DNA from: a bacterium endosymbiont of Escarpia laminata
Lineage (GTDB): Bacteria > Pseudomonadota > Gammaproteobacteria > Chromatiales > Chromatiaceae
Reading direction: 5' to 3'
DNA length: 64,000 nt
Assembly: GCA_003660235.1 (NCBI GenBank)
Contig: QGON01000071.1
Location: forward strand, 1 to 64,000
Shown: one piece after another, positions 7,775 through 38,799 of the stretch
How positions within the stretch are numbered: position 1 is the stretch's first letter
How the letters are laid out: each line of letters starts with the position of its first letter
The notes under the pieces: generated by a model
What the model saw: the letters and a program-made list of their open reading frames with translations, nothing else
What the model was told of the DNA's origin: nothing
The model's database searches: none
Made by a program: the position numbers and the translations under genes

Positions 7775-9745
7775 CTAAACAACCCGCTCGTTTCCCCCAT
7801 CAATCGGGATCTGCGCGGCAGTGGTTTTGGCGAACAACGGACCGCAGAGCTCGGCGGTGAGTTCCGCCACGTCGTGGCTGGTAATCTCGGTCTTCAGCAG
7901 ATTCCTTGTCTTGTAATCCTGCACGCTCATGCCGTAGTGGTCGGCGCGGGCCTGCAGCACTTCCTGAGTCCAGATGCCGGTGTCGAAAACGGCATCGGGA
8001 TGCAGGATATTGATGCGAATGCCGTCTTTGGCCCACTCCAGAGCGACAATCCGGGCAAGCTGGGTGAGTGCGGCTTTTGAGGCGGAGTAGGCTGCCGCGC
8101 CCGCACCTGGTGCGGGTACGTTCTTTGATCCGATCACCACCACCCGGCCATTGTTCGGCGCCTGTTTCAGCAGAGGGTGAGATGACCGTAACAGGGCCAG
8201 ATTGGCATTCAGATTGACCTGCATGACCTGGTTCCACTCGTCGTCGGGGAGTTCCGCCACCGCGCAGCCGCCGGGAAACATGCCCGCATTCAGCACCAGC
8301 ATGTCGAGCCCGCCGAAGGCGAGGGTCGATTTTTGCAAAGATTGTTGCAGGGCCGCGCTGTCGGTGATGTCGCAGCAGATACCGAGATAGTCTGGGCGCA
8401 GGCAGAGGGTCTCGATGACAGGATCGATATCCAGACCCACCACGGCAGCTCCCCGTGCCAACAATGAATCCACACAGGCCTTGCCGATGCCGGAAGCGGC
8501 GCCCGTCACCAGCGCAACCTCGCCCTGAAACTGTGGCGCCTTTCCGCCTTTGCGTAGTTTGGCCTGTTCCAGCTCCCAGTACTCGACGTCGAAGATATCC
8601 CGCGCGGGCAGGGCGCGCCAGCCGCCGAGTCGTTCGGCGCGCTGAATGATCTCGATGGTGTGGCGATAGATATCTGAGATGATCTTCGCTTCTTTGGGAC
8701 TCTTACCGACGGTGAGCAGTCCCAGTGCCGGATCCAGCACCACCCGGGGTGCAGGGTCGAGCATCTTGACCGGTGCGCGTGACTGGGGCGATTGCTTTTC
8801 GAAGTATTGGCGATAGTTCCGGGCATAGCTTTCTACATCACGACCCAGCTGAGGAAGACGTTTGGTGCGGATGACGTGATCCGGAGTTGCCGGTCCCTGT
8901 TGCGAGATCACAGCGAGGTCATCCCGTTGGCAGAAGGCCATCTCGGCAGGCTTGCGATGACTGCGCAGTACTACCGGGAAACCGGCGGCAGCAGAGATGT
9001 CGCGGCGCAGGGACGCCAACACAATCGGATCTGTTGCAGTCGCTTCATAGGCGGGCTTAGGCAGTTCCCAGGCTCCCTCGGCCTGAAGGTATCTCTCCGC
9101 CCGGTCGACCAGCGCTATCATGCGTTCATAGGAGGCCTTGGCAGTGTCGCCAAAGGTGAAGAGGCCGTGGTTCATCAGCACCATGCCGAGGGTGCCCTCG
9201 TGGGCCTCTTTTGGGAATTGCTCCGCGACTCTCCGGGCCAGGTCGAAGCCGGGCATCACGTAGGGGATGATCACCAGGTCGTCGCCGTAGAGTTCGCGGA
9301 TGCGTGCTTCGCCATCCGGGGTGTTGGTGATGGTGACCAGGGCGTCGGCATGGGTATGGTCGACAAATTTGTAAGGCAGCGCCGCGTGCAGGATCGCCTC
9401 TACAGAGGCAGTCGGGGCGGAGGCGATGGTCTGCTGGGTCTTGAGCTGGTTGACCATCTCAAGATCGGAGAGCGACTCCAGGGTTGCCAGCTTCAGCAGA
9501 TGTGCCATGCGGACCGGGGTGTAACCCTCAGTCTCGATGGTGGCCAGATCCCAGCCGCTGCCCTTGACGTAGAGGATCTCCTCTTCATCTCCGAAGAGAT
9601 CGGGCTGGCGGATTTTTACCGAGGTGTTGCCGCCTCCGTGCAGCACCAGCGAGGGATCGCTCCCCAACAGTCTTGAGCTGTAGACCCGCAGTTGCAGATC
9701 ATCGGTGAATCGGGCGGCTTCGGTATCGTTCCAGAGGGTTTTCAT
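7775..9745 (-). CDS. bifunctional class II aldolase / short-chain dehydrogenase
   Basis: This is a 656-residue fusion. Residues about 1-380 are a class II aldolase domain, with the metal histidine pair in FVDHTHADALV and a later NHGLFTFG. Residues about 405-656 are a short-chain dehydrogenase with the NAD-binding glycine motif TGAASGIGKA, NAGMFPGG, and the catalytic YSASK. The fusion matches the family of rhamnulose-1-phosphate aldolase/alcohol dehydrogenase proteins, which split a phosphorylated sugar into dihydroxyacetone phosphate and lactaldehyde and then oxidise or reduce the aldehyde. No sugar kinase, isomerase or transporter lies next to it here, so the true substrate is open. The gene is convergent with the broken repeat-protein gene. 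Confidence 0.85.
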   Translation of the reverse strand: MKTLWNDTEAARFTDDLQLRVYSSRLLGSDPSLVLHGGGNTSVKIRQPDLFGDEEEILYVKGSGWDLATIETEGYTPVRMAHLLKLATLESLSDLEMVNQLKTQQTIASAPTASVEAILHAALPYKFVDHTHADALVTITNTPDGEARIRELYGDDLVIIPYVMPGFDLARRVAEQFPKEAHEGTLGMVLMNHGLFTFGDTAKASYERMIALVDRAERYLQAEGAWELPKPAYEATATDPIVLASLRRDISAAAGFPVVLRSHRKPAEMAFCQRDDLAVISQQGPATPDHVIRTKRLPQLGRDVESYARNYRQYFEKQSPQSRAPVKMLDPAPRVVLDPALGLLTVGKSPKEAKIISDIYRHTIEIIQRAERLGGWRALPARDIFDVEYWELEQAKLRKGGKAPQFQGEVALVTGAASGIGKACVDSLLARGAAVVGLDIDPVIETLCLRPDYLGICCDITDSAALQQSLQKSTLAFGGLDMLVLNAGMFPGGCAVAELPDDEWNQVMQVNLNANLALLRSSHPLLKQAPNNGRVVVIGSKNVPAPGAGAAAYSASKAALTQLARIVALEWAKDGIRINILHPDAVFDTGIWTQEVLQARADHYGMSVQDYKTRNLLKTEITSHDVAELTAELCGPLFAKTTAAQIPIDGGNERVV

Positions 9746-30396: not shown

Positions 30397-31356
30397 ATGG
30401 ATCTGAACTTTCTCGAATTTGAGCAGCCGATCGCCGAACTTGAGGCGAAAATCGAAGAGCTTCGCCTGGTGGGCGACGACAATGAGATCAACATTCAGGA
30501 CGAGATCACCCGTCTTGAAAGCAAGAGCCGTATGCTTACGGAGACCATCTTCTCCGGTCTTAAACCCTGGCAGATATCCCAGCTCGCCCGGCATCCCCAA
30601 CGGCCCTACCTGCTGGATTATGTCAGCCGGATATTCGACGAGTTCCATGAGCTCCACGGCGACCGCACCTTTGCCGATGACCATGCCATCGTTGGTGGCG
30701 TGGCGCGCATCGACGGTCTGCCGGTAATGGTGATCGGCCAGCAGAAAGGCCGTGATACCAAGGACAAGCTGCACCGGAATTTCGGTATGCCCCGTCCCGA
30801 GGGCTATCGCAAGGCACTGCGGCTGATGGAGATGGCGGAGCGGTTCCAGCTACCGATCCTCACCTTTATCGACACACCCGGCGCCTATCCCGGCGTAGGC
30901 GCTGAAGAGCGCGGGCAGAGCGAGGCGATTGCCAGAAACCTGAAGGTGATGTCCAGTCTGCGTACCCCGATCATCTGCACTGTGATCGGTGAAGGTGGAT
31001 CCGGCGGCGCGTTGGCCATCGGTGTTGGAGATCGGGTGATGATGCTGCAATACAGCACCTATTCTGTGATCTCGCCGGAGGGGTGTGCTTCCATTCTGTG
31101 GAAGAGTGCGGAAAAGGCCCCCCTTGCCGCAGAGGCAATGGGTATCACCTCCGATCGACTGAAAGAGTTGGATTTGATCGATGAGATCATTCCCGAACCC
31201 CTGGGTAGCGCCCACCGGGACTTGGAGACGATGTCAAAGAGTCTCAAACATTCCCTGCTGGAGGGACTGGAGAATCTCGGCAGCATGGCCATCGACAAAC
31301 TGCTGGACACCCGCTATCAGCGGCTTATGCAGTACGGCCAGTACAGCGGAGAGTAG
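30397..31356 (+). CDS. accA: acetyl-CoA carboxylase carboxyltransferase subunit alpha
   Basis: This 319-residue subunit works with AccD to transfer the carboxyl group from biotin to acetyl-CoA, giving malonyl-CoA. The N-terminal coiled coil ([20 protein letters not shown]) and the crotonase-fold core ([35 protein letters not shown]) are typical. It sits 38 bases after dnaE and 22 bases before tilS. Confidence 0.97.
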
Positions 31357-31378
31357 TTCCTCTTTTCCGCCTTCCTGT

Positions 31379-32728
31379 ATGGAATTTTCTCCGGCCCGTC
31401 TGCTCGAAGGGATGCCGCCACTACCCCGTTCCGGTGACTGTCATGTCGCCTTTAGCGGTGGCCTCGACTCTTCTGTTTTACTGCACGCGCTTGTGCAGAT
31501 TCGCGACCGGATTCCCGCTGAACTCAAAGCTATCCATATTCACCACGGACTCCAGTCTGAAGCGGATGCCTGGGGCGATCACTGTCGAGATTTCGCAGGA
31601 GCCCTCGAAGTTCCCTATCAGCAGATCAATCTGGCGCTGAATCCATCACCTGGAGAGAGTGTCGAGGCGCTGGCGCGTGAGGGGCGCTACCGGGTTTTGG
31701 CTGATCTGCTGCAGCCCGATGACTGGCTGCTCACCGCCCAACACCAGGATGACCAGGCAGAGACCCTGCTGCTGCAACTGCTGCGCGGCAGCGGACCCGC
31801 TGGTCTGGCGGCGATGGCGAAAACGTCCCGGCTTGGAAAGGGGTGGCTGCAACGTCCTCTGCTCGGTTTTACCCGGCAGGCACTCGAAGCCTATGCGCAG
31901 AGCGAAGGTTTGACCTGGGTGGAGGATCCCAGCAACCGCGACCTCGAATTTTCCCGGAACTATCTGCGCCATGAAATCATGCCGCGTATTCAGATGCACT
32001 GGCCCGCTGCCAGCGTGACGCTTTCCCGCAGTGCGGGGCTCTGTGCCGATGCCCAGGTGCTGATCGATGAGTTGGCGGCGGAAGATATGTTGCGGTGCCG
32101 TGGCTCCGAGTCTGGAAGATTGTCGGTGAAGGTCCTCAGTCGGCTCTCTGAGCCGAGAATCCGCAGTCTGTTGCGGCATTGGGTTCGGGAGCAGGGTGCC
32201 GCAGCGCCCGGTTACAGGCACCTGCAGCGCATGTTGGATGAGTGTGTGCTGGGACGTGTGGACGCCAACCCGCTGGTGGGCTGGGGGGGGATGGAGGTGC
32301 GCCGCTATCGGGATGACCTTTTTCTTGGTCCCCGGCTGCCCCCCCATGATGCTGGATTATGCCTGAGTTGGAATGGTGAAGCGGCGTTGACACTGCCATC
32401 CGGCCTGGGAAGGCTGAAGGTCTCTCTCTCCGCACATGGGGTTGATGCGGAACAGTGGCAAAAAGGTCGTATCGAGGTGAGATTCCGCCGGGGCGGTGAG
32501 CGCTGTCGTCCGGCGGGTGACAGTCATCACCGTTCCCTGAAGCAGTTGTTTCAGACCTGGGGTGTACCGCCCTGGTTGCGGGATCGTATCCCTTTGATCT
32601 TCCTGAGTGGGGAGTTGGCGATTATCCCCGGATTTGCCGTTTGCCAGCCCTTTGTGGCGGCAGAGGGGGCTGCTGCGGTGCAGCTGTATTGGAATGGTTC
32701 TCTATGCGGAAACCTGGAATTGACATGA
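31379..32728 (+). CDS. tilS: tRNA(Ile)-lysidine synthase
   Basis: This 449-residue enzyme attaches lysine to cytidine 34 of the CAU-anticodon tRNA-Ile, so that it reads AUA. The PP-loop motif HVAFSGGLDSSVLLHAL (about 20-36) binds ATP. The N-terminal nucleotidyl domain ends near 215 and is followed by TilS-specific substrate domains (FRRGGERCRPAG, about 370-381). The ATG at 31379 was chosen because the longer frame from 31181 overlaps accA out of frame. It closes the dnaE-accA-tilS cluster. Confidence 0.95.
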   Translation: MEFSPARLLEGMPPLPRSGDCHVAFSGGLDSSVLLHALVQIRDRIPAELKAIHIHHGLQSEADAWGDHCRDFAGALEVPYQQINLALNPSPGESVEALAREGRYRVLADLLQPDDWLLTAQHQDDQAETLLLQLLRGSGPAGLAAMAKTSRLGKGWLQRPLLGFTRQALEAYAQSEGLTWVEDPSNRDLEFSRNYLRHEIMPRIQMHWPAASVTLSRSAGLCADAQVLIDELAAEDMLRCRGSESGRLSVKVLSRLSEPRIRSLLRHWVREQGAAAPGYRHLQRMLDECVLGRVDANPLVGWGGMEVRRYRDDLFLGPRLPPHDAGLCLSWNGEAALTLPSGLGRLKVSLSAHGVDAEQWQKGRIEVRFRRGGERCRPAGDSHHRSLKQLFQTWGVPPWLRDRIPLIFLSGELAIIPGFAVCQPFVAAEGAAAVQLYWNGSLCGNLELT

Positions 32729-32801: not shown

Positions 32802-33638
32802 CTAGCTTTTCTGGGTAATAGTCCTGGCTTGTTCCAATTCTTTAACCATCTCCTCCAGCGGTGGGATGTTATCATTGCGTTCGATCATAGTGGCAACCTG
32901 GCCGGTATGTTTCAGTGTATCGCTGTAGAGTTGCCAGATTGGGTCGGATTTGACTGCTTCGGCGGTATCTCCCTGATATTCCACATTGCTGAGCAGTGGG
33001 GCGAGATGAATCTGCCGGATGCGTTGGGCCGGCAGGTTGTGCACAAATGCCATGGGTTCCAGCCCCAGTTTGTTGCAGTTCGACAGGACATTGTTCAGAT
33101 CCAGCAGGATCAGTGAATCGGAGGCTTCGGCAACTGCCGTCATGAAATCCCACTCCGGCATCTGATCACCACTCTCCTGATGATAGACGGAGATATTCTC
33201 CAGCATGAGACGTCTGCCCAGTCTCTCCTGGACCTCGAGAATACGGGGGGTCAGGTGATCGATCATCTCAAGCGTCCTGGGCAGGGGGCGCAGATCATAG
33301 CTGTGGGACTGGCCCGGCAGGGTCCAGCAGAGGTGGTCGGAAATCGCGCTGGGTTTCACATGCTGCATTAGGGTTATAAGTTGCTTGATATAAGCCGCAT
33401 CCAGCGGATCCGGCCCCCCAATTGAGAGCCCCGCGCCGTGCATGAACAGGGGATATTCAGCGCGGATCTGCAGCAGCTGATCCATCGTCTCTTCATCGGC
33501 ATCCAGATAGCTGTCGGAGAGAATCTCGAACCAGTCCACGTCCGGTCGCTGTGCTATGACTGGTCTGACCAGCTCGCGCCGCAAGCCTAGGCCAAAGCCG
33601 GGATCGGTTCTATTATTGGCAGGATGGTCGATAGTCAT
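32802..33638 (-). CDS. orphan DUF692 / MNIO-family protein with an incomplete metal-site motif set
   Basis: This 278-residue protein fits the DUF692 family of multinuclear non-heme iron oxidases (MbnB, TglH and BufB relatives), which modify cysteines in ribosomal peptides. Retained likely ligands are H67 (MHGAGLSIG), H102 (ISDHLCW), E147 (ENIS), D180 and N183 (LLDLNNV), H211 (QIHLA) and E253 (MIERNDNIPP). The usual HLAGH is HLAPL, and the downstream D-x-H motif (commonly near DTHDHPV) is replaced by GDTAEAVKSDPIW. The metal site is therefore partly altered. No BufA-like precursor or BufC-like partner gene is next to it: tilS is convergent and trxC divergent. Function unknown. Confidence 0.82.
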   Translation of the reverse strand: MTIDHPANNRTDPGFGLGLRRELVRPVIAQRPDVDWFEILSDSYLDADEETMDQLLQIRAEYPLFMHGAGLSIGGPDPLDAAYIKQLITLMQHVKPSAISDHLCWTLPGQSHSYDLRPLPRTLEMIDHLTPRILEVQERLGRRLMLENISVYHQESGDQMPEWDFMTAVAEASDSLILLDLNNVLSNCNKLGLEPMAFVHNLPAQRIRQIHLAPLLSNVEYQGDTAEAVKSDPIWQLYSDTLKHTGQVATMIERNDNIPPLEEMVKELEQARTITQKS

Positions 33639-33768
33639 GATTGGAGCATCTAGTTGAGATCAACACTATTATTATACCGGTTTGCGCCTGATTGGTAGCG
33701 CCTTGAAATCGAGAGATGGATCCCCATTTATAGACGGGATCTGATAATCTTTTTCGGGGATTGAGTTC

Positions 33769-34236
33769 ATGTCGGAAGCAATGCATATCGTCTGCCCCCA
33801 TTGTGGCGGTGTCAATCGGGTTCCAGCGGCGCGGCTGAAAGACAACGCCAACTGCGGCAAGTGCCATAACCCTCTGTTTACCGGGCAGCCGATCGCTCTG
33901 GATGGGGCGCAATTCCAGCGCCACAGTCAGAAGAGCGATCTTCCGTTGTTAGTCGATTTCTGGGCCTCTTGGTGTGGTCCCTGTAAAATGATGGCGCCGG
34001 CTTTCGAGCAGGCTGCGGTGCAACTCGAACCGCAGGTGAGGTTGGCAAAGGTGAATACGGAAGAGCAGCAGCAGCTGGCAGCGCAGTTCGGTATCCGCAG
34101 TATTCCCACATTGATGCTACTGCATCGGGGCAGGGAGGTTGCCCGGCAGCCAGGTGCCATGGATGCTGGAGGCATCATTAACTGGACCCGGCAACATCTT
34201 AGGGACGGTTTATTCGACGGTGACTTATCCACGTAG
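33769..34236 (+). CDS. trxC: thioredoxin TrxC (thioredoxin 2, zinc-binding N-terminus)
   Basis: This 155-residue protein has an N-terminal zinc motif of two CxxC pairs (CPHC at about 9-12 and CGKC at about 29-32), then a thioredoxin fold with the active site WASWCGPCKMMAP (about 64-76) and the cis-proline IPTLML. It reduces disulfides in the cytoplasm, and the zinc form is linked to oxidative stress. The ATG at 33769 is preceded by GGGGA at 8 bases; MHIVCPHC four residues in is the alternative start. Confidence 0.93.
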   Translation: MSEAMHIVCPHCGGVNRVPAARLKDNANCGKCHNPLFTGQPIALDGAQFQRHSQKSDLPLLVDFWASWCGPCKMMAPAFEQAAVQLEPQVRLAKVNTEEQQQLAAQFGIRSIPTLMLLHRGREVARQPGAMDAGGIINWTRQHLRDGLFDGDLST

Positions 34237-34371
34237 ACAGAATTGCTCTCTTTCAAGTAGAATCGCCTTGGTTTGACGTGGCACTTTCAGCCACTGATCC
34301 CATACGATTCGATTGGAGCGGGGTAAGTCGCAGGGCTTATCCCGTTTCGTGCGCTCGCAGTGGAGAATTTT

Positions 34372-35511
34372 TTGAACAAACCAGCAGTTCTGGTCCTGGA
34401 AGACGGTACCACTTTTCGGGGCGAAGCCATTGGTGCAGATGGGCAGTCTGTCGGTGAGGTGGTCTTCAATACGGCCATGACCGGCTATCAGGAGATTCTT
34501 ACCGATCCTTCCTACAGTCGTCAGATCGTGACCCTGACCTATCCCCATATCGGCAATACCGGCGCCAATGAGGATGACGAGGAGTCGGGACATATCCATG
34601 CCGCTGGCCTGGTGATTCGCGACCTCCCCCTCTTGAGCAGCAACTGGCGGAGCCAGGAGGCACTGGATGCCTACCTGCGCCGCAACAATATCGTCGCTAT
34701 TGCCGGTATCGACACTCGCAAGCTGACCCGAATCCTGCGGGAGAAGGGGGCACAGAGCGGTTGCATCCTGGCCGGTGACGGCATTGATGAGCAGACGGCA
34801 CTGGCGGCGGCAAAGGCTTTTCCCGGTCTTAAGGGCATGGATCTGGCGAAAGAGGTCACTACCGATACCCCCTACGAATGGGCTCAAGGCACTTGGTCCC
34901 TTGAGGGTGGAATGCCTGAGGCCGAACACCCTATCGAAGATAAGTTACCACTGCATGTGGTGGCCTACGACTACGGGGCCAAACGCAATATCCTGCGCAT
35001 GCTGGTGGATCGGGGCTGCCGCCTGACGGTGGTGCCGGCCCAGATGTCCGCGAAGGATGTGCTTGCCATGAATCCAGACGGGGTATTCCTCTCCAATGGA
35101 CCCGGCGACCCGGAGCCCTGCGACTACGCTATAGAAGCGATCCAGGAGATTGTCGACACAGGTACGCCGGTGTTCGGCATCTGTCTGGGGCATCAGCTGT
35201 TGTCCCTTGCCAGCGGTGCCAAGACGGTCAAGATGAAATTCGGCCACCATGGCGCGAATCATCCGGTGCAGGACCTGAGGGAAAAGACGGTCATGATCAG
35301 CAGTCAGAACCACGGTTTTGCAGTGGATGAGGAGAGTCTGCCGGAGATTCTGAAGGCAACGCATCGCTCGCTTTTCGATGGTTCGCTGCAGGGTATCCAC
35401 CGTACCGACAAACCAGCTTTCGGCTTTCAGGGACACCCTGAAGCCAGTCCCGGTCCCCACGACGTGGCGCCGGTGTTCGACCATTTCATCGAATTAATGG
35501 AAAAGAATTAA
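34372..35511 (+). CDS. carA: carbamoyl-phosphate synthase small subunit
   Basis: This 379-residue glutaminase subunit releases ammonia from glutamine for CarB. The TTG at 34372 is chosen as start because GGAG lies 6 bases upstream and the product ([20 protein letters not shown]) aligns with known CarA N-termini; the GTG at 34360 lacks a ribosome site. The class I amidotransferase nucleophile is in [10 protein letters not shown], with histidine and glutamate in [14 protein letters not shown]. carB follows after a 75-base gap filled by an inverted repeat. Confidence 0.96.

Positions 35512-35586: not shown

Positions 35587-38799
<3,213 letters not shown>

Follow-up and report, generated by a model that had tools for sequence, protein, structure and literature searches.

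What an MNIO enzyme can still do when its third metal site is degenerate and no partner protein accompanies it is the question raised by one gene of the window, as we call the whole 64,000-nucleotide stretch of DNA that was analyzed. In TglH, Fe1 and Fe2 are described as bound by His71, His107, Glu151, Asp184, His216 and Glu258, and Fe3 by Asp184, Asn187, Asp229 and His231, low activity being reported for the D229A and H231A variants (PMC10880893). HvfB is described as requiring a mixed-valent Fe(II)/Fe(III) diiron center, reached solely with its partner HvfC, and its N175A, D242A and H244A variants are all reported inactive, though iron need not fill site 3 (PMC13419390). A first-pass annotation had recognized in the window a DUF692/MNIO protein with a two-iron site and a lost third site, an observation that our analysis confirms as a whole; several of its details, discussed below, need amendment.

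The gene, its family and its predicted fold

The product of the gene (278 aa; Table 1) matched PF05114 with 273 bits (cut-off 25) over residues 15–275 and was, in a genome-wide profile search, the sole PF05114 match in its 4.25-Mb genome; a PHROGs search with the protein gave no match. The gene is present in 6/6 genomes of the window's genus, the other five copies being 89–91% identical to that of the window, and identity to the other genera of the clade defined below is just 38–47%. Over 15 genus pairs dN/dS ranged from 0.11 to 0.22, so the gene is under purifying selection and has been retained by selection. These data bear directly on the possibility that the gene is decaying and about to be lost, which would account for the many family-conserved residues that have been lost and for the long stem (1.4 changes per column in a quick 76-row tree) of the tubeworm-symbiont branch; given the low dN/dS, the occurrence in every genus genome, the invariant metal ligands and the lack of internal stops in 23 strong clade matches, decay was already disfavored and is very improbable.

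Among curated models, the protein scored 262 bits with BufB (NF050167), below the equivalog cut-off of 310, and 216 bits with HvfB, below the cut-off of 360. The six clade proteins tested with the BufB model all fell short of 310 (260–273 bits), while the five intact MNIOs tested all exceeded the BufB or the HvfB cut-off, three of them being BufB-like at 387–400 bits. Such scores agree with a putative departure of the clade from BufB.

The AF2 model of the protein is a TIM barrel with a mean pLDDT of 86.7, falling to 68 at residues 211–220 and to 53 at residues 221–230, the region of the would-be third site; for the intact relative L009, modeled with AF2 on nearly the same alignment, pLDDT in the same loop was 94 (201–210) and 89 (211–220). 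The closest solved fold was 3bww, a homolog of HvfB (Z 28.5, rmsd 1.9, 238 aligned), then TglH (Z 27.2), MbnB (Z 23.4–24.5) and sugar epimerases (18.4).

Table 1. Coordinates of the features discussed, as positions in the window; counts under Basis refer to the 22 clade rows and the 105 other MNIO rows of the alignments.
Feature	Position	Strand	Basis
tilS, ORF as listed; neighbor in the window and in four named members of its genus	31181..32728	plus	ORF list, synteny
MNIO (DUF692) coding sequence, 278 aa	32802..33638	minus	ORF listing and PF05114 match
E253, ligand position	32880..32882	minus	TglH Glu258; 22/22 clade, 105/105 others
Degenerate site-3 stretch, residues 211-226 (HLAPL ... D224-T-A226)	32961..33008	minus	Alignments; low AF2 confidence 211-230
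H211, ligand position	33006..33008	minus	TglH His216; 22/22 clade, 105/105 others
N183, site-3 Asn, retained	33090..33092	minus	TglH Asn187; 22/22 clade, 105/105 others
D180, ligand position	33099..33101	minus	TglH Asp184; 22/22 clade, 105/105 others
E147, bridging ligand position	33198..33200	minus	TglH Glu151; 22/22 clade, 105/105 others
H102, Fe1/Fe2 ligand position	33333..33335	minus	TglH His107; 22/22 clade, 105/105 others
H67, Fe1/Fe2 ligand position	33438..33440	minus	TglH His71; 22/22 clade, 105/105 others
130-bp intergenic gap, flanked by the divergent MNIO and trxC genes	33639..33768	.	ORF boundaries
trxC-like thioredoxin 2, divergent neighbor	33769..34236	plus	Pfam; synteny
carA, conserved neighbor	34360..35511	plus	ORF list, synteny
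carB, conserved neighbor	35587..38799	plus	ORF list, synteny

Metal-site residues

Residues were compared between 22 clade rows, i.e., 22 of the 23 strong loci (all but the G005 locus, which is 89% identical to the window), and 105 other MNIO rows, which include at least four genes twice (L114/L009, L115/L011, L116/L010 and L124/L008); rows L112 (the window's own gene again), L117, L125, L140 and L180 (partial, from genome G034) were left out of the counts. Correspondences to TglH were established by motif and fold, TglH being absent from the alignments. On this basis H67, H102, E147, D180, H211 and E253, proposed in the first-pass annotation as the core ligands, all align with the Fe1/Fe2 set of TglH.

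The third site was found to be altered as annotated at the HLAGH motif, which reads HLAPL in the window, L215 replacing the second His; this His is present in 0/22 clade rows vs. 99/105 other rows. The annotated disappearance of the D-x-H motif stands in part. The site-3 His is lost, A226 standing at the position of TglH His231, but the Asp position is still an Asp (D224, equivalent to TglH Asp229, retained in the window's genus and ungapped to the next conserved D-P-x-W) and the Asn, N183, is kept. Since residues 212–234 of the window protein contain neither a His nor a D-x-H, the ligands have not simply shifted, and displaced site-3 ligands were rejected for the clade as well: the same stretch is without D-x-H in all 22 clade rows, whereas D-x-H occurs in the site-3 stretch of all 105 others. 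In one clade row, L047, the alignment places a D directly followed by H on the two D-x-H columns, and six other clade rows have a His elsewhere within the 212–234 stretch.

Residues have also been lost at further positions where other MNIOs vary little or not at all, as seen also when the 22 clade rows were compared with 29 other rows. H191 and D255 are found in none of the 22 clade rows, D115 and N182 in five each and Y152 in six; outside the tubeworm-symbiont branch D115 and N182 are missing throughout and Y152 in all rows but one, so that the window's own branch is less degenerate at these three positions than its sister branches. Judged by their conservation, the lost residues may belong to the second shell or to the pocket, and an altered chemistry of the window MNIO is plausible.

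In a sister subclade, whose motifs are of HLAGA/HLAGS type, a Leu-Cys pair is conserved in the degenerate site-3 loop, four residues past HLxGx, in 10/10 rows (L036–L039, L041–L043, L047, L050 and L170), and 5/7 Sedimenticola-type rows have a Cys in this loop. The loop Cys could be a new ligand or a redox residue.

Distribution and phylogeny of the clade

A clade profile searched against 194 genomes of the family recovered 23 loci from eight genera at 388–460 bits, the next match scoring 342, so the gene is not universal in the family (23/194 genomes sampled); a further member is probably the partial gene that G034 has at a contig edge. In a search of 369 genomes sampled from the class, the highest score apart from the window's own was 347 bits, and 26 of the 29 best other matches, compared for their motifs (L117, L125 and L140 being left out), all had HLAGH and D-T-H.

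Whether the loss is shared by a clade had been proposed as a check by means of a family tree. In a 60-row tree computed without the trait columns, all 19 clade rows fell on one side of a branch with support 100/98, recovered in 100% of 200 bootstrap trees. In the quick 76-row tree the clade adjoins the BufB-like intact rows; all trees were midpoint-rooted. A two-iron site with loss of the third is thus supported as a statement about sequence, and the loss defines a clade. Because the site-3 motif is present in all 105 other MNIO rows, it would have been lost in the clade and not gained elsewhere. The clade includes Sedimenticola, and the nearest named relatives of the window are symbionts of the tubeworms Lamellibrachia and Escarpia, which makes a deep-sea tubeworm symbiont its probable source.

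Genomic neighborhood

The gene had been called an orphan with neither precursor nor partner alongside. The second part holds, as no PME match was found at the locus and the intergenic distances, 130 bp to trxC and 73 bp to the tilS ORF, leave no room beside the MNIO gene for any known type of precursor gene; neither a sigma-70-like site (promoter scan) nor an Rfam match was found in the 130-bp gap. The word orphan is apt for the want of RiPP neighbors, but the gene has a fixed setting: upstream of it are carA and/or trxC in 16/17 named clade loci and in the window, the 17th (L047) starting inside the gene, vs. 0/63 intact named loci. The clade MNIO is therefore at an inherited housekeeping position, outside any RiPP cluster. 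The names carA, carB and tilS are presumed assignments from the sequences. As listed, the tilS ORF shares about 175 bases with the end of accA; the actual start codon is probably a more internal ATG.

Downstream of the MNIO, the named clade loci have a GT2 glycosyltransferase (9/17), TrmO (4/17) or tilS (4/17, and the window). The GT2 gene, directly after the MNIO in those nine loci, was considered as a new partner and rejected: genes of this kind occur once each in 57/194 family genomes, are missing from the Sedimenticola loci, lie about 389 kb from the MNIO in the window genome, and at L186 travel with c12, SDR and TrmO away from any MNIO. A conserved cassette of GT2, c12, a short-chain dehydrogenase and TrmO was in fact seen at L179 (window genome, C11:413000-432900), L181, L186 and L050, and some clade genomes have it linked to the MNIO, others apart from it; c12 had no Pfam match and is presumably nucleosidase-like. 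Nor is the thioredoxin-TPR gene that we take to be cnoX a constant associate, as it lies upstream in 4/17 named clade loci (L037, L039, L043 and L050), with a weaker match (96–99 bits) in 4/63 intact loci.

Partner and precursor searches

A PME profile, built from four DUF2063 proteins beside intact MNIOs and iterated on the fetched loci, detected a PME/DUF2063 gene in 62/63 intact named loci; the only exception, L065, ends at a contig edge, and in 57 intact loci the PME ORF starts within 400 bases of the MNIO end. The same profile matched none of 18 clade loci (17 named and the window; best E 7.7). At the genome level, Pfam PF09836 matched 3/16 genomes, with all five matches adjoining an intact MNIO, and was without match in the other 13, all of which carry clade MNIOs, the window's included (one of them, G054, also has an MNIO fragment, and the clade MNIO of G034 is partial). 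An 18-row partner alignment gave a match with E below 1e-50 in 9/9 genomes with an intact MNIO and was unmatched in 16 of the 17 genomes whose only MNIO is of the clade (best E 0.08); the remaining one, G029, has a 75-residue partner fragment at a contig start. In the window genome the best match to this alignment (A3) had E 0.2 and an internal stop, and no PME partner was detected in it or in five sister genomes.

Precursors were searched for in 26 genomes. DUF2282 exceeded the cut-off in seven, none of them among the six of the window's genus, where two sister genomes reached 17.6 bits, below the cut-off. With the oxazolin-type query, matches came from two intact-MNIO genomes and from not one of the 17 clade-only genomes. 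The nine intact-MNIO genomes served as a control: both searches together recovered 8/9, missing G440, which has a partner. The suggestion that a substrate is encoded elsewhere was thus unsupported for the precursor kinds searched for, since the window genome and its five sisters gave no DUF2282 above the cut-off, no oxazolin-type match and no PME.

Small upstream ORFs with at least three Cys were uninformative by number, being found at 56/59 intact and 17/17 clade loci. In the 17 clade loci examined (the window included, L047 excluded) there were 39 such ORFs, 30 of them mostly inside named genes; the nine others, at L034, L038, L042, L052 and L055, are dissimilar by eye and none is in the window. 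In most of the intact loci inspected, signal-peptide or EGKCG-like precursors were seen. One clade locus, L042, has outside its named genes a 33-aa ORF with CSAACGKCG upstream of the MNIO (7877-7978), possibly by chance. G034 (C131:8071-8220 and C87) combines a strong DUF2282 match with only a partial clade-type MNIO and has no partner match. On G054 contig C28 (14837-14989), a 51-codon MNIO N-terminal fragment lies in a 65-aa open frame, the clade MNIO being on C63; the fragment may be what is left of a former bufferin locus.

These searches are most relevant to the alternative that the protein is still a RiPP maturase, served by a remote, divergent partner of PME-type 2 and by an unrecognized precursor. 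It shares its fold and diiron site with RiPP MNIOs; PME-type 2 proteins are described as having no Pfam signature and a variable length (PMC12452194), so such partners, as well as other kinds of precursor, could possibly escape our profiles; the partner gene of the pes cluster is reported as not adjacent to the MNIO gene (PMC13060819); and stray Cys ORFs in 5/17 clade loci, together with the DUF2282 gene of G034, might be read in its favor. The missing partner match in nearly all clade-only genomes and the precursor results argue the other way, as do a housekeeping locus with none of the stray ORFs in the window and the loss of site 3, HLAGH and other residues that RiPP relatives conserve. On balance we consider this alternative unlikely.

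Comparison with known MNIO systems and proposed function

BufB is the closest curated family, sharing fold and diiron ligands with the window MNIO and standing beside the clade in the tree, and it differs from the window protein by the sub-cut-off score of the latter, its lost site 3 and the failure to find a partner or precursor. With HvfB and 3bww the likeness lies in the fold and the diiron site; however, HvfB needs N175, D242, H244 and HvfC, whereas the window protein has only the equivalents of the Asn and Asp, and no partner. TglH and MbnB share the fold, and TglH the Fe1/Fe2 ligands, but both are described as having a third site and working with TglI or MbnC. PesH and PflD, reported as active Asp-hydroxylating MNIOs, likewise have no Fe3 HxD motif (PMC13060819); unlike the window protein, PesH works in a RiPP cluster and depends on its partner PesI (PMC13060819), and PflD is described as a nitroreductase fusion in a RiPP cluster (PMC12636437). 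Since such active enzymes have been described, a two-iron MNIO is an already known kind. The novelty lies in a single inherited lineage having lost site 3, partner and cluster together. The literature searched, which covers part of the MNIO papers, contained no lineage that lacks all three while strictly keeping the diiron ligands, and nothing that links DUF692 to Endoriftia or MNIO to Sedimenticola.

As the two-iron core is kept and the third-site residues and helper gene are lost, the clade probably does a different job from its relatives. We consider it an even call that the window MNIO is a partner-free diiron oxidative enzyme acting on a non-bufferin substrate. Such an enzyme would have the MNIO fold, derive from bufferin-maturase-like (BufB) ancestors and have left RiPP maturation. 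Its two-iron core would still activate O2 and oxidize a substrate, most likely by hydroxylation, in what would probably be a two-electron oxidation as in PesH and PflD. HvfB needs both its site-3 residues and its partner for the active Fe(II)/Fe(III) state and both are lost here, which suggests that the working state would be reached by another route. The substrate would need no leader peptide or partner and might be a protein or a metabolite encoded away from the MNIO; the trxC neighbor is a hint, nothing more, of a redox-linked protein substrate.

Three comparisons weigh against a partner-free oxidative enzyme. By analogy with the inactive HvfB variants, a natural loss of site 3 may entail the loss of O2 chemistry; PesH, itself without the Fe3 motif, still needs PesI; and the modeled fold is also that of sugar epimerases, which are non-oxidative. 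The first and the last of these would also fit a metal-binding protein that is no oxidase, i.e., a scaffold, a regulator or an isomerase-like enzyme on the MNIO/xylose-isomerase fold, for which PesX, an MNIO-like protein proposed to act as a regulator, offers a precedent (PMC13060819). PesX, however, is described as without metal ligands (PMC13060819), while all six are strictly kept in the clade, and a PesX-type competition for a partner has no target where no partner is found; we regard a non-oxidase as improbable.

Extending the partner-free diiron oxidative reading to the whole clade, we tentatively propose, at somewhat less than even odds, a vertically inherited MNIO lineage outside the RiPP world, in which Sedimenticola and tubeworm symbionts would share a stand-alone diiron oxygenase that has neither partner nor third-metal His and acts on an ordinary cellular protein or metabolite. 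If true, nature would here have uncoupled the two-iron engine from the partner and site-3 system that HvfB needs for its active state. The case bears on the purpose of the third iron site of MNIOs, the HvfB residues being reported as essential even though iron need not occupy the site (PMC13419390). This clade has lost the site-3 His along with the partner in the course of evolution, with the two-iron ligands still guarded, and comparing the window MNIO with an intact relative would show directly whether the diiron core is competent by itself. Should it prove so, this would suggest that MNIO substrates extend beyond RiPP clusters.
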